Of a stretch of DNA of 64,000 bases, positions 27,065 through 46,948 are shown in pieces. Position 1 is the first letter of the stretch; the number at the start of each line of letters is the position of its first letter. This DNA is from Candidatus Poribacteria bacterium (GTDB lineage: Bacteria; Poribacteria; WGA-4E; PCPOR2b): assembly GCA_003635265.1 (NCBI GenBank), contig PYIZ01000050.1, positions 1 to 64,000 of the forward strand. The letters run 5' to 3'. The position numbers were made by a program, and so were the translations under genes. The notes beneath the pieces are model-generated. The model did not search any database, was not told the origin of the DNA, and saw only the letters and a program-made list of their open reading frames with translations.

Positions 27065-27784
27065 TTAGCACTTTTCCGCAATTGTAATGAGCCGTCTCGA
27101 CTCGGTCAGAAACGGGCTATAGTCAAACTCGCCGTACATTGCACGCACTTTTAAACCTGCTGATGCTAACATCACTTCCAATTCCGTCGGGAAGTAGAAT
27201 CGAATGCGATTGACCGACTCCTGAACTGCACCGGTAGAAAGGTCTATCACCGTTCGATGGTCGGAGAGCCGTCCAGATGTCGAATCGTATTCAACCTCTG
27301 CGAGTGCTAGCAGTGATTCGGACATCCACCACCAATTGCGCGTTTGATCCAATTGAAACGCTGCATAGGGATTCCAATACTCCAGCAAAAATTTCCCGCT
27401 CGACTTGAGGGCTGCCGCAACCGCTGTAATAACCCTTTTATTCTCATTATCTTCAAAAAAACCGAAGCTGGTAAAGAGATTAATGACGGCGTCACAGACT
27501 GGCTTTAGGGGGATATTGCGTGTATCGCCTTCAATGAGATGTACCTTGCTCTGGCTTGAAGAGCCATTTTTCTGTGCTTCCGTTAAAAGAAAACGAGAGC
27601 TATCTAAACCGACAACCTTCATACCTCTGGCCGCCAAGAGTTGTCCATGCCTTCCCTGACCGCAGCAGAGATCTAAGACAGTCGCCCCTTGCATAAGCTC
27701 AAGTGCTTCACAAATGAATTCGACCTCTTCCGCTGTTTCTGCTGCCGGAGGGATTTCGGAAAGGAGATAAGTCTGGTCCCACAT
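27065..27784 (-). CDS. Class I SAM-dependent methyltransferase
   Basis: ATVLDLCCGQGRHGQLLAARGMKVVGLDSSRFLL; DAVINLFTSFGFFED. Confidence 0.92.
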   Translation of the reverse strand: MWDQTYLLSEIPPAAETAEEVEFICEALELMQGATVLDLCCGQGRHGQLLAARGMKVVGLDSSRFLLTEAQKNGSSSQSKVHLIEGDTRNIPLKPVCDAVINLFTSFGFFEDNENKRVITAVAAALKSSGKFLLEYWNPYAAFQLDQTRNWWWMSESLLALAEVEYDSTSGRLSDHRTVIDLSTGAVQESVNRIRFYFPTELEVMLASAGLKVRAMYGEFDYSPFLTESRRLITIAEKC

Positions 27785-27790
27785 CGTACG

Positions 27791-28837
27791 TCACATTCTA
27801 TACCGTCCAAACTGGATGGTTTTTGTCTTGGCTGCTGTTCCCACCTTGCAGCGTGATTGCAACTGCTTGGTATTGAAATCCACAGCATCAATTACTCCAA
27901 TTGAAATCGTTGTGCCCGATGCGTCGAGTAATCCGACCAAGCAACCTTCAAAGTATTGGGGAGTTGCAGTGACCAAATTCTTCAAACTTAAATGATTCTT
28001 CAATCGTGCTTGGATTAGACTCGGCAGTGCATCTAGCGTGACCAATACCAACGATCGATGCCCCCATTCGGCGTAAAAAACGTGGTCATCGACAAAATCG
28101 GAGAGCATTTCCTGTTCTTTGGGATTTGCCTGCCGCCCGTTGAAGAATGGGGTGCTTTGCCCACGTATCTGATCGAAAGGCAACATCTCCTGAACGCAAT
28201 CTGAAAAGTAGCGCGTGAAACTCGACTCACGGTACTTCCTGCGAAAGTCGTCGCTTTTAGAACTAACGCTTCTATGCGGCAAGAGTCGATGTGTCTGTAT
28301 TGTATCGTTACCCTCAAAAGGAGCGACAATCGCCTCCAACTCGCGTGACCGATGGAGGCAGATTAGGTGTGTTGGCTTAACCAACTCGATTTTATGCTGC
28401 TTGAGAACAACCGCGGTGTCCCCTTCTATATATCCTGTCGTATCAACGACAATGAGGTCTGCCCCCGTTTTCAAGGCAGCATCAACCATCAAACGCGTCC
28501 CTGCCACACATTGCAGCAGATGCCGTTCTGGTGAGGTCCAGCCTACAAAGTAAAGTGCATCAGGCTCGCCCTCAATCTCTGTAAGGTTGTCTGTCGAATC
28601 GTTTGGCGAAAAGACCTTCAACCCAATCGTGGTCGGCGGTCCGATCTGTGATTGCCCCACATCTGCATCAACGAAGCCAACCCTCAATCCGCTTGTCACG
28701 CCCTGCTCAATGAGAAACCGGCAGAATGTTGATTTGCCGACATCCGTTGCACCAATGACTAGCACAATCTGTTGAGGCTGTACCACTTTTCGCGCAAGGT
28801 TTTCCCAGTCACGATTCGGTTGGTAGAGGTCTGCCAT
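27791..28837 (-). CDS. Clp1/Grc3-family polynucleotide 5'-hydroxyl kinase-like P-loop protein
   Basis: Walker A VIGATDVGKSTFCRFLI; FVDADVGQSQIGPPTTIGL; VVDTTGYIEGD; RSRELEAI lid-like motif; C-terminal beta-rich region. Confidence 0.78.
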   Translation of the reverse strand: MADLYQPNRDWENLARKVVQPQQIVLVIGATDVGKSTFCRFLIEQGVTSGLRVGFVDADVGQSQIGPPTTIGLKVFSPNDSTDNLTEIEGEPDALYFVGWTSPERHLLQCVAGTRLMVDAALKTGADLIVVDTTGYIEGDTAVVLKQHKIELVKPTHLICLHRSRELEAIVAPFEGNDTIQTHRLLPHRSVSSKSDDFRRKYRESSFTRYFSDCVQEMLPFDQIRGQSTPFFNGRQANPKEQEMLSDFVDDHVFYAEWGHRSLVLVTLDALPSLIQARLKNHLSLKNLVTATPQYFEGCLVGLLDASGTTISIGVIDAVDFNTKQLQSRCKVGTAAKTKTIQFGRYRM

Positions 28838-36808: not shown

Positions 36809-36853
36809 AATTTCAGAGTGCCGTATTCAATTGAACGAATGAGGTAAATTGCA

Positions 36854-38050
36854 TTGAAATCCACAAGCCAAATTATCGAAGAAGTAAAAAAAGAAATCCC
36901 TGAGATTTCTGCTGAAGAAGCGCAGAAAGAGAAAGCGGAAGGCGGAGATGATGTTGTGCTGCTTGATGTCCGCGATGAGGACGAATATCGAGCAGGATAT
37001 ATCCCTGATGCGGTTCATGTCACGCGGGGAATGCTTGAATTCTCGATAGAAGATGAAGTGCCAGATCGGGACAAGAGAGTGATTGTCTATTGCGCTGCGG
37101 GAATGAGATCCTTGCTCGCTGCCAAATCCCTACGAGAGTTAGGATACGCGGATTCCGTATCCATGGCGGGTGGATATCGAGACTGGTCAGCGTCAGGACT
37201 CCCGACCGCCAAAGATAAACAGATGACACCGGATCAGTTGGAGCGGTACAGTCGCCACTTTATGCTGACCGAAGTCGGCGAAAGGGGACAGTCGAAGCTG
37301 CTTGACGCCAAAGCGCTACTCGTCGGAGCAGGCGGTTTAGGTTCACCGGCAGGATTATACCTTGCAGCGACAGGCGTTGGCACGCTCGGTGTGGTTGATT
37401 CAGATGTCGTCGAGTTAAGCAACTTACAGCGACAAATCCTCCACCGCACGGAAACTGTCGGTAAGCCGAAGGCGGAATCTGCGGCTGAAACAATGGGTTT
37501 CCTGAACCCTGATGTCAATGTTGTCCCCTACAATATGCGACTGTCAGAAGATAACATCATCGACCTCTTTAACGAGTACGACTTGGTTGTTGACGGCTGC
37601 GATAATTTCGCAACACGCTATCTAGTCAACGATGCTGCAGTGCTGACAAATACCCCCATCGTACACGGCAGTATCTTCCAGTTTGAAGGGCAGGCAACCG
37701 TCCTCAAGCCACACGATGGACCGTGCTATCGGTGCATGTATCCAACCCCGCCGCCACCCGGCATGGTGCCTGGCTGAAACGAGGCTGGCGTCCTGGGCGT
37801 GCTCCCGGGCACAATTGGTCTTGTGATGGCAACTGAGGCGGTCAAGCTGCTGCTCGACGTTGGCGAACCGCTCATCGGTCGCTTGATGATGTATGATGCA
37901 CTCAGCATGAAGTTTCGTGAATTGAAAGTGAGTCGGGATGAGAACTGCCCGATCTGCGGCGAAGAACCGACGATTACCGAACTCATTAGTGATTACGTCG
38001 AGTTTTGCGAATTGGATCATTCCGAGCCGCTTGCAACTGCTGCCGACTAA
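36854..38050 (+). CDS. Candidate selenoprotein: N-terminal rhodanese + ThiF/MoeB-type E1-like adenylyltransferase with in-frame TGA (putative Sec) at 37775-37777
   Basis: Rhodanese VVLLDVRDEDEYRAGYIPDAVHV...IVYCAAGMRS; ThiF/MoeB GAGGLGSPAGLYLAATGVGTLGVVDSDVVELSNLQRQILH; CYRC and CPICG Zn ligands on either side of the TGA. Frame continues NEAGVLGVLPGTIGLVMATEAVKLLLDVGEPLIGRLMMYDALSMKFRELKV to TAA at 38050. Confidence 0.85.
37790..37812 (+). promoter_or_regulatory. Putative bacterial SECIS-like hairpin downstream of in-frame TGA
   Basis: CCUGGG (37792-37797) / loop CGUGCU (37798-37803) / CCCGGG (37804-37809), extendable by GU/AC across a bulged C. Loop starts 20 nt after UGA and has G at its second position followed by U. 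Confidence 0.65.
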
Positions 38051-38112: not shown

Positions 38113-38355
38113 ATGCTCCCTTGTCCAGGTTGTAATAATCCGCTTACGCAATTTCCGATCGAACGATCGGACGTGGATCTGATGAGTTGTGACGGCTGCC
38201 AAGGTGTTTTTCTCAATCGCCCCGGTGGAGAACTGGAGAACGTGGATAACGCAACATTTGACGAACTTGTTGAAGCCTATGGCACCGAATATCCAATTGA
38301 TGTAGATCCAAGCACCGTTACTCTACCAGAGGAAGTAGAAGAAGCCCTTGAATAG
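38113..38355 (+). CDS. Small zinc-finger protein (TFIIB-type zf-like)
   Basis: MLPCPGCNNPLTQFPIERSDVDLMSCDGCQGVFLNRPGG: CPxC...CxxC. Confidence 0.82.
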   Translation: MLPCPGCNNPLTQFPIERSDVDLMSCDGCQGVFLNRPGGELENVDNATFDELVEAYGTEYPIDVDPSTVTLPEEVEEALE

Positions 38356-45005: not shown

Positions 45006-45470
45006 TCATCTGTCGGCAATAATCCAGCCACCATCTATAAGTTCAGTGGTTGCACAACTAGGTCCACCATATTTATCTGTTCCCATATATCTTGCCATAA
45101 GCACCTTATTCGGGTTTTCGGATACTTCCTTCACCATATCCCAAGTCACCTCTTCTTGGCGGAGAGATTTGGGATAGCCCGTTGAAATCCAGATCTTCGC
45201 CCTTCTGCACCATTCACAATCCGGTTGACCTGCCAGCTCCCCGATATTGACGTAGAAAAACCGTTTCGAGGGAGTTCCCCGTGCAAATGCCCCTGTAAAG
45301 TTGGGGACGCCTGTGTTGCGCTGCGGTTTCACGAGCGCATCAAAATCAAACGTAATATCCTCGCCCGTAGATTGGGTAACTGAAACCAAAGTCCCGTTAT
45401 TTTCCAAAGCGAAATTGACTCCGATCGGAGGACTTACAACAACAATGCGCATTGGGATTTTATATTCCAT
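45006..45470 (-). CDS. DUF5990-like hypothetical protein
   Basis: MRIVVVSPPIGVNFALENNG...DFDALVKPQRNTGVPNFTGAFARGTPSKRFFYVNIGELAGQPDCEWCRRAKI; family name from memory. Confidence 0.65.
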   Translation of the reverse strand: MEYKIPMRIVVVSPPIGVNFALENNGTLVSVTQSTGEDITFDFDALVKPQRNTGVPNFTGAFARGTPSKRFFYVNIGELAGQPDCEWCRRAKIWISTGYPKSLRQEEVTWDMVKEVSENPNKVLMARYMGTDKYGGPSCATTELIDGGWIIADR

Positions 45471-45521
45471 AATTTTATTCCTTACATTTCCTTTGGATTT
45501 TGTAACTGAGTTGATGTCATA

Positions 45522-46736
45522 TCAGCGAACCGCCGCGCCCGTTGCCCTAAGTGGATATACAGGTCGATCTGCAATGGGAAGGTGAACGACGGAAGCCAGC
45601 ACACCGAGGATAATCGCAATTATCCATACAGGCGTGTACATCCCCGTTGCGTCATAAATTCTGCCACCAAGCCAAACCCCAAGAAAACTGCCCACTTGGT
45701 GGCTGAAAAATACAATTCCGTACAACGTCGCTAGGTAGCGGGGACCGAAAATTTGCGCCACTGTGCCGCTCGTCAACGGAACGGTAGCCAGCCACAAAAA
45801 ACCGATTGCAGCACCGAAAACCATCGCTGTGGTTTCCGTCACTGGAAAGATGAGAAACAAACTGATAATGATCGAACGACCAAAGTAAAGACCACTCAGC
45901 AGATACTTCTTGCGATAATGATCGCCTAGGTAGCCAAATAGCGTAGAACCAAATAGATTAAACAACCCCACCAGCGAGAGTGCGGTTGCGCCGGCTGTAC
46001 TTGATAATCCGTTATCAGTAAGATAGGCGGGTAGGTGGGAAGCAACATACGAAACGTGGAAGCCGCAGACAAAAAAGCCGATGGTCAGCAGCCAATACCC
46101 CGAATGATGACTTGCCTTCGCTAACACCTCAGTCAATGAATCGGAAGGCATATCCGTGGGGTCTCCGCTGGCAGCCGGTTGCTTTCGAGTTGGATATCCC
46201 ACTGCCAAGAGGGCAATTAACCCCACAACCCCCGCAAAAGTCGCAAAAGTGGCTCGCCAACCAAAGGCATTCAAGATGTACTGTGCTACCGGCACGACGA
46301 CAAACATCCCAACCGAACCAGCGGCTGTAATAAAGCCAAATGTCCTGCTACGCCGTTCAGGTGGGACCACCTGCACCACCGCACCCAACACAACGACATA
46401 CGACACACAACTCAGAGCCAGCCCCGATAACAAACCGAAACCGAGCATCAGACCTGTTCCATGCGTCGTAATCGACATCAGATACATTGATACAGCGAAT
46501 AGTAACCCACCGCCTATCGCCACCCATCGCGAACCGTAACGATCCGACAGCATGCCCGCAAGCGGCAAACCACCAATAATGCTTTGGATGGCTATAGCTA
46601 AACTAAACAGTTCACGCCCAATACCCAGTTCATTGGTAACCGGTTGCAGATAAATGCCAAATGTCTGCCGTGTTCCCATGCTAATCAGAATGATAAGGAT
46701 ACTACATCCGACAACATAGGTTTTACGTTGGAACAA
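45522..46736 (-). CDS. MFS transporter (monocarboxylate/oxalate-type)
   Basis: 12-TM-like; LAGMLSDRYGSRWVAIGGG; VPPERRSRTFGFITAAGSVGMFVVVPVAQYIL. Confidence 0.92.
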   Translation of the reverse strand: MFQRKTYVVGCSILIILISMGTRQTFGIYLQPVTNELGIGRELFSLAIAIQSIIGGLPLAGMLSDRYGSRWVAIGGGLLFAVSMYLMSITTHGTGLMLGFGLLSGLALSCVSYVVVLGAVVQVVPPERRSRTFGFITAAGSVGMFVVVPVAQYILNAFGWRATFATFAGVVGLIALLAVGYPTRKQPAASGDPTDMPSDSLTEVLAKASHHSGYWLLTIGFFVCGFHVSYVASHLPAYLTDNGLSSTAGATALSLVGLFNLFGSTLFGYLGDHYRKKYLLSGLYFGRSIIISLFLIFPVTETTAMVFGAAIGFLWLATVPLTSGTVAQIFGPRYLATLYGIVFFSHQVGSFLGVWLGGRIYDATGMYTPVWIIAIILGVLASVVHLPIADRPVYPLRATGAAVR

Positions 46737-46948
46737 TAACTACCTCCTATTTGCCGCTCCGTTAACTTATCAATTGAGTAGGGAATACGCCGTTTAGGCT
46801 TGGGTAAACAGAAGCGACAGACGTCATTTTTCAAGTATTCTTAATTTCCTATCCCTAAATAATATAACACAAGTTGCTAGTTGAATATCCATGGAATTTC
46901 TATTAGAGCATTTGTGCCCCAAACAAAACTCGTAAACAAGAGAATTCT

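Follow-up and report, generated by a model that had tools for sequence, protein, structure and literature searches.

Gene structure and domains

The window analyzed here (64,000 nucleotides of contig PYIZ01000050.1) stems from a member of Candidatus Poribacteria, a sponge-associated type of bacterium; its closest named relative is a Candidatus Poribacteria MAG, with 96% protein identity. A single frame on the forward strand (36854–38050) encodes a protein of 398 amino acids if its only in-frame TGA (37775–37777) is read as selenocysteine (Sec, U308). The predicted selenoprotein gene starts with a TTG codon, which is preceded at a distance of 9 nt by a likely Shine-Dalgarno sequence (GAGG, 36841–36844, forward strand) that is present upstream of the same TTG also in the homologs L065, L017, and L018, and ends with a TAA codon (38048–38050).

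The N-terminal part of the protein consists of a rhodanese domain (residues 20–113, 36911–37192; Pfam Rhodanese, 2e-19), whose active-site loop VYCAAGMRS contains Cys80 (TGC, 37091–37093). It is followed by a ThiF/MoeB adenylation domain with the nucleotide loop GAGGLG (residues 132–366, 37247–37951), and the corresponding Pfam ThiF match (5e-83) continues through the TGA without a break. The pairs of the zinc site, CYRC (residues 291–294, 37724–37735) and CPIC (residues 365–368, 37946–37957), are intact before and after the TGA, as stated in the initial annotation, and all four cysteines are invariant among 25 homologs. The nucleotide loop and the rhodanese Cys80 are likewise conserved, or nearly so, among the homologs. 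The protein displays the hallmarks of E1-like enzymes, namely, a GxGGxG loop, two zinc-binding Cys pairs, and a Cys or Sec residue in the crossover loop.

A small CxxC-rich ORF with two CxxC pairs, which resembles a zinc ribbon, is located directly downstream on the same strand (38113–38355). It has no NCBIfam match, but its family recurs near the selenoprotein gene in 16 poribacterial loci, and a functional link to this gene is only putative.

Conservation of the in-frame TGA

In pairwise alignments, U308, which lies in the sequence PPPPGMVPG-U-NEAGVLG, coincides with the reactive Cys in the crossover loop of MoeB and ThiF of Escherichia coli and fungal Uba4, which corroborates the original proposal that the TGA occupies the position of the catalytic Cys. 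Among the best 80 relatives obtained from a scan in which each bacterial or archaeal species was represented by a single genome, the respective codon is TGA in 59 loci, TGC or TGT in 21, and TAA or TAG in none; because these are the top-scoring relatives, the proportion of Sec and Cys forms is not a census. The TGA forms originate from at least five phyla (Poribacteria, Nitrospinota, Tectomicrobia/Entotheonella, Methylomirabilota, and Planctomycetota) and are found also in MAGs labeled as Deltaproteobacteria and Proteobacteria. Within the same order as the window, a full-length or nearly full-length fusion with exactly one TGA is present in 66 of the 72 genomes, and a TGA-bearing fragment is present in one more. 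The fusion is absent from the 12 poribacterial genomes outside this order. No Cys version of the rhodanese–MoeB fusion is listed within the phylum Poribacteria, and none occurs among the 72 genomes of the order. On the protein tree, the Cys fusions form a single clade (support 100/99), and a single change of state accounts for the MoeB site when the paralog is left out.

Thus, close homologs retain the TGA together with the downstream domain instead of terminating at this site. The dN/dS ratio of the part that follows the TGA is 0.04–0.12 in comparisons with the four closest relatives, which argues that this part of the gene is under strong purifying selection and agrees with the earlier impression that it is constrained rather than decayed. 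The preservation of TGA at the same codon in most relatives, the lack of TAA or TAG at this position, and the low downstream dN/dS together exclude chance. By contrast, the open frame of 90 codons that follows the TGA is not sufficient as proof on its own, because a next gene in the same frame leads to 171 and 241 open codons behind a TGA in two other long ORFs of the window. These ORFs (27068–28837 and 45009–46739, both on the minus strand) each consist of two adjacent genes that share one frame and were rejected as further selenoprotein candidates.

SECIS element and selenium machinery

The TGA is followed by a hairpin (CCUGGG-CGUGCU-CCCGGG, 37792–37809, forward strand) with a 6-nt loop that has G at position 2, followed by U, a 6-bp stem, a spacer of 20 nt between the UGA and the apical loop, and an MFE of −15.8. 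These values lie within every numerical limit of the published model for bacterial SECIS elements (loop of 3–9 nt with G in the first two positions, stem of 4–16 bp, spacer of 16–37 nt, and MFE ≤ −7.5), so that the search for a SECIS element suggested in the initial annotation has a positive outcome.

Further evidence comes from the pattern of synonymous substitutions. When windows of eight codons are compared along the entire gene in 43 poribacterial Sec forms, synonymous diversity is lowest in codons 313–320, which contain the hairpin. In codons 314–319, synonymous diversity of the poribacterial Sec forms is only 0.09, compared with a gene mean of 0.48 (lowest 0.3% of windows), whereas that of the 21 Cys forms is 0.69 (92nd percentile), suggesting that the RNA is held constant only where a UGA must be decoded. 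The same signal was not seen among 10 diverse Sec forms of other phyla (0.61), although every non-poribacterial Sec gene tested has a hairpin whose loop contains G-U or G-G. The hairpin test alone is passed by 59 of 60 Sec forms but also by 11 of 21 Cys forms, because the peptide VLGVLPG favors a hairpin. Since this test separates Sec and Cys forms poorly, we relied on synonymous diversity, which is clear in Poribacteria only.

The genome also possesses the machinery for the synthesis and insertion of Sec, with all four components whose presence the initial annotation had left to be ascertained. The genes selA (599 bits), selB (372 bits), and tRNA-Sec (76.6 bits) are adjacent on contig C10, where ARAGORN calls a tRNA-SeC with the anticodon TCA. 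The selD gene (C21:43967–44884) itself has an in-frame TGA at the active site (CG-U-AAKV), followed by a hairpin, which implies that the synthesis of Sec in this genome depends on Sec. A strong tRNA-Sec (73–80 bits) was detected in all 10 non-poribacterial genomes with Sec forms but in only one of four genomes with Cys forms. Among the planctomycetes and the relative L066 discussed below, the search for tRNA-Sec covered the genomes of L066, L083, and L092. The presence of selA and selB has been reported for most genome bins of sponge symbionts from various phyla (PMC5649159).

Most of the sequences compared are metagenome-assembled, and the evidence comes entirely from DNA; on this basis, the UGA at 37775–37777 is almost certainly decoded as Sec. 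Standard ORF calling, which truncates or splits all TGA-bearing genes, yields a product of 307 amino acids and a second ORF of 83 amino acids, as would be the case if the TGA were a true stop and the sequence behind it were either degenerating or part of another gene that begins at GTG 37799. Such a truncation is highly improbable in view of the 59 relatives from different phyla in which both the TGA and a downstream domain of low dN/dS persist, the Sec machinery in the genome, and the synonymous constraint that is specific for the SECIS element. Even less credible is a sequencing or assembly error that converted TGC or TGT to TGA: a single base separates TGA from a Cys codon, but the TGA is shared by dozens of separately assembled genomes, and the hairpin is constrained only in the TGA forms. 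The in-frame TGA codons that are read through in the window gene and in selD would be compatible also with a recoded genetic code in which TGA is an ordinary sense codon. However, TGA terminates 16 of the 44 long ORFs of the window, and the genome encodes a dedicated tRNA-Sec together with SelA and SelB, which renders the use of a recoded code just as implausible as an error in the assembly.

Relationship to known MoeB-like proteins

The statement in the initial annotation that Sec-containing MoeB-like proteins are already on record for marine metagenomes is borne out by the 2008 survey of the Global Ocean Sampling data, which gives 19 Sec sequences and 2,262 Cys homologs of pfam05237 (PMC2398784). 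The Sec form of MoeB was catalogued again in 2022 and 2026 (PMC9312934, PMC13188914), with one Sec, no motif, and the example MBT7809913.1. Like the window gene, the published representatives are members of the MoeB/ThiF family that were predicted to be selenoproteins from DNA. However, the catalogue passages compared here name only the MoeB domain and give no position of the Sec, no rhodanese domain, no mechanism, and no form with two Sec residues. The Sec-containing MoeB is a kind of protein that is already known, and the window gene is a further member with much firmer support; what is new are details on the spread of these proteins, their RNA signal, and relatives with apparent Sec at both reactive sites.

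The N-terminal position of the rhodanese domain, which had originally been considered an unusual domain order, turned out to be that of an established family. The window protein matches the NCBIfam equivalog NF006444 (PRK08762, MoeB) with 535 bits (cutoff 449) and is collinear with the model over 382 residues (residues 5–386 to positions 4–384 of 387). NF006444 has the same domain order, but its description is not that of a family of selenoproteins, whereas the window protein has a predicted Sec at the reactive site. Uba4, MOCS3, MoeBR, and MoeZR also combine an adenylation domain and a rhodanese domain in one chain and share the reactive residues in the crossover loop and the rhodanese domain. 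However, their rhodanese domain is C-terminal and their reactive residue is Cys, whereas the rhodanese domain of the window protein is N-terminal (residues 20–113), which sets it apart from MoeBR/MOCS3, and its crossover loop carries Sec. E. coli MoeB and ThiF resemble the second half of the window protein in fold and residues but lack a rhodanese domain and have Cys at the Sec site. In an AF2 model of the window protein (mean pLDDT 87), the nearest solved folds are those of ThiF, MoeB, and Uba4, and among the internal parts, order is lowest in the loop with Sec308, which parallels the loop of apo Uba4.

Relatives with apparent selenocysteine at both reactive sites

The codon that corresponds to the rhodanese Cys80 is also TGA in four relatives, which are apparent double selenoproteins. 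In L066 (positions 1220–2410; JACPFL010000262.1), the motifs are Y-U-ASGLRS in the rhodanese domain and PN-U-NEAGVLG in the MoeB domain; in L189, L190, and L191, which fall into the planctomycete class of L083, they are U-GGGSRS and AP(G/N)-U-(N/E)EAGVLG. The TGA at the rhodanese site of L066 is followed by a hairpin (GCGGUC-CGUGCU-GGCCGC) with a spacer of 17 bases and the same apical loop as in the SECIS element of the MoeB site; among 80 contexts of the rhodanese site that lack the additional TGA, only one has a hairpin of this type. The corresponding hairpin of L190 (GCUGCUUGC-GGC-GCAGGCAGC) has a spacer of 26 bases. A single clade of the four relatives was rejected (p 0.007, for a group chosen after the tree had been seen), which points to at least two probable origins of the double-Sec form; within the planctomycetes that carry this form, the branches of the tree have moderate support (91/74).

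The sister lineages of the double-Sec planctomycetes (L083, L092, L185, L186, and L187) have Asp instead of the rhodanese Cys (YDAGGNRS) but retain the Sec codon at the MoeB site.

No double-Sec MoeB was found in the passages compared from the selenoprotein catalogues (PMC2398784, PMC9312934, PMC13188914), a search that covered part of the literature. Sec at the active site of rhodaneses of other families and proteins with multiple Sec residues, such as TsoB, are known (PMC13188914), but unlike in L066, L189, L190, and L191, none of the entries seen in that catalogue joins a Sec rhodanese to a Sec MoeB. A stand-alone rhodanese of Candidatus Tectomicrobia KatS3mg131 (L178, G087:C10:104859–105257) has a TGA at the active site (ILF-U-AGGGRSSL) that is followed by a hairpin (GCGGUCA-AGUU-UGGCCGC) and is likely a Sec rhodanese.

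Proposed function of the selenoprotein

The selenoprotein is very likely an E1-like activator of sulfur carriers that is equipped with its own sulfur-donor domain. The signals for Sec decoding, the position of the Sec, the domains, the catalytic residues, and the presence of carriers are shown at the sequence level. Directed by the hairpin at 37792–37809, SelB and tRNA-Sec would decode the UGA at 37775–37777 as Sec. In the cycle that we consider most likely, the ThiF/MoeB domain would adenylate the C-terminal Gly-Gly of a carrier of the MoaD/CysO type, which would be taken over as an acyl-selenoester by Sec308 in the flexible crossover loop. The acyl-selenoester would be attacked by the persulfide of the rhodanese Cys80, yielding an acyl-disulfide, and its reduction would release the thiocarboxylate of the carrier for the synthesis of molybdopterin or cysteine or for other sulfur transfers. 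Selenium would accelerate the acyl transfer and facilitate restoration of the enzyme after oxidation.

The identity of the carrier and the benefit of selenium are inferred, and so are the steps that follow adenylation, which are modeled on Uba4. In the latter, the adenylated carrier forms a thioester with C202 of the crossover loop, which is attacked by the persulfide of the rhodanese C397 to release the thiocarboxylate (PMC7527816). Sec308 matches the position of C202, and Cys80 takes the role of C397. Based on this correspondence and on the similarity of the AF2 folds and loops, the formation of an acyl-selenoester on Sec308 during turnover seems slightly more probable than its absence. That L066 and L189–L191, which represent at least two lineages, extend such a relay of the Uba4 type by passing sulfur between two Sec residues of a single chain, with the acyl-selenoester on the Sec of the crossover loop, is a more tentative proposal, to which we give not quite an even chance.

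Alternatively, Sec308 may have mainly a redox or protective role, blocking the self-attack of the enzyme by its own thiocarboxylated product or sensing oxidants, and may not carry the acyl group in each turnover. In Uba4, C202 also guards against self-conjugation in the presence of oxidants (PMC7527816), and the planctomycetes whose rhodanese Cys is replaced by Asp still keep their Sec, so that the Sec must have some role that is independent of the rhodanese persulfide. Moreover, nearly all genomes of the order possess, beside the Sec gene, a rhodanese-less, Cys-containing paralog without internal stop (in the genome of the window, a MoeB-like protein with about 62% identity, C31:17137–17922), which could accomplish the housekeeping activation of carriers. 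However, all other catalytic features are common to the Sec and Cys forms, and the residue equivalent to Sec308 is the known acyl acceptor of Uba4 (PMC7527816). We consider a mainly redox or protective role rather unlikely and favor Sec308 as the acyl carrier.

Most selenoproteins of known function are oxidoreductases, according to the 2008 survey (PMC2398784). If the proposed acyl transfer is true, selenium would instead take part in ubiquitin-like chemistry, as the residue of an E1-like enzyme that transfers the acyl group would be Sec. Because the TGA form is kept in almost all genomes of one order, its advantage is probably real. The combinations found at the rhodanese and MoeB sites (Cys/Sec, Sec/Sec, Asp/Sec, and Cys/Cys) constitute a natural series that may help to assign the role of each residue.

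Candidate sulfur carriers and gene neighborhood

A recurrent gene for a sulfur carrier or another sulfur-related function next to the Sec gene was not found among the gene neighbors of 81 loci; the most common recurring neighbors in this set are mostly confined to Poribacteria. A plasmid search returned only matches with less than 60% identity. Since no carrier gene adjoins the window gene, any choice of substrate is a guess; in Mycobacterium, MoeZR serves both MoaD and CysO (PMC3227635). The genome encodes four candidate carriers, including moaD, which adjoins moaE, thiS, which is located after a gene for a thiO-like oxidase, and a CysO/SAMP1-like carrier with Gly-Gly plus a short tail. The latter belongs to a cluster on contig C34 (near 317083–317343) that also contains cysK-like and cysH-like genes, a JAMM/desampylase-like protease, and a small protein, and which may represent a CysO-like route of cysteine formation or a system for carrier maturation.
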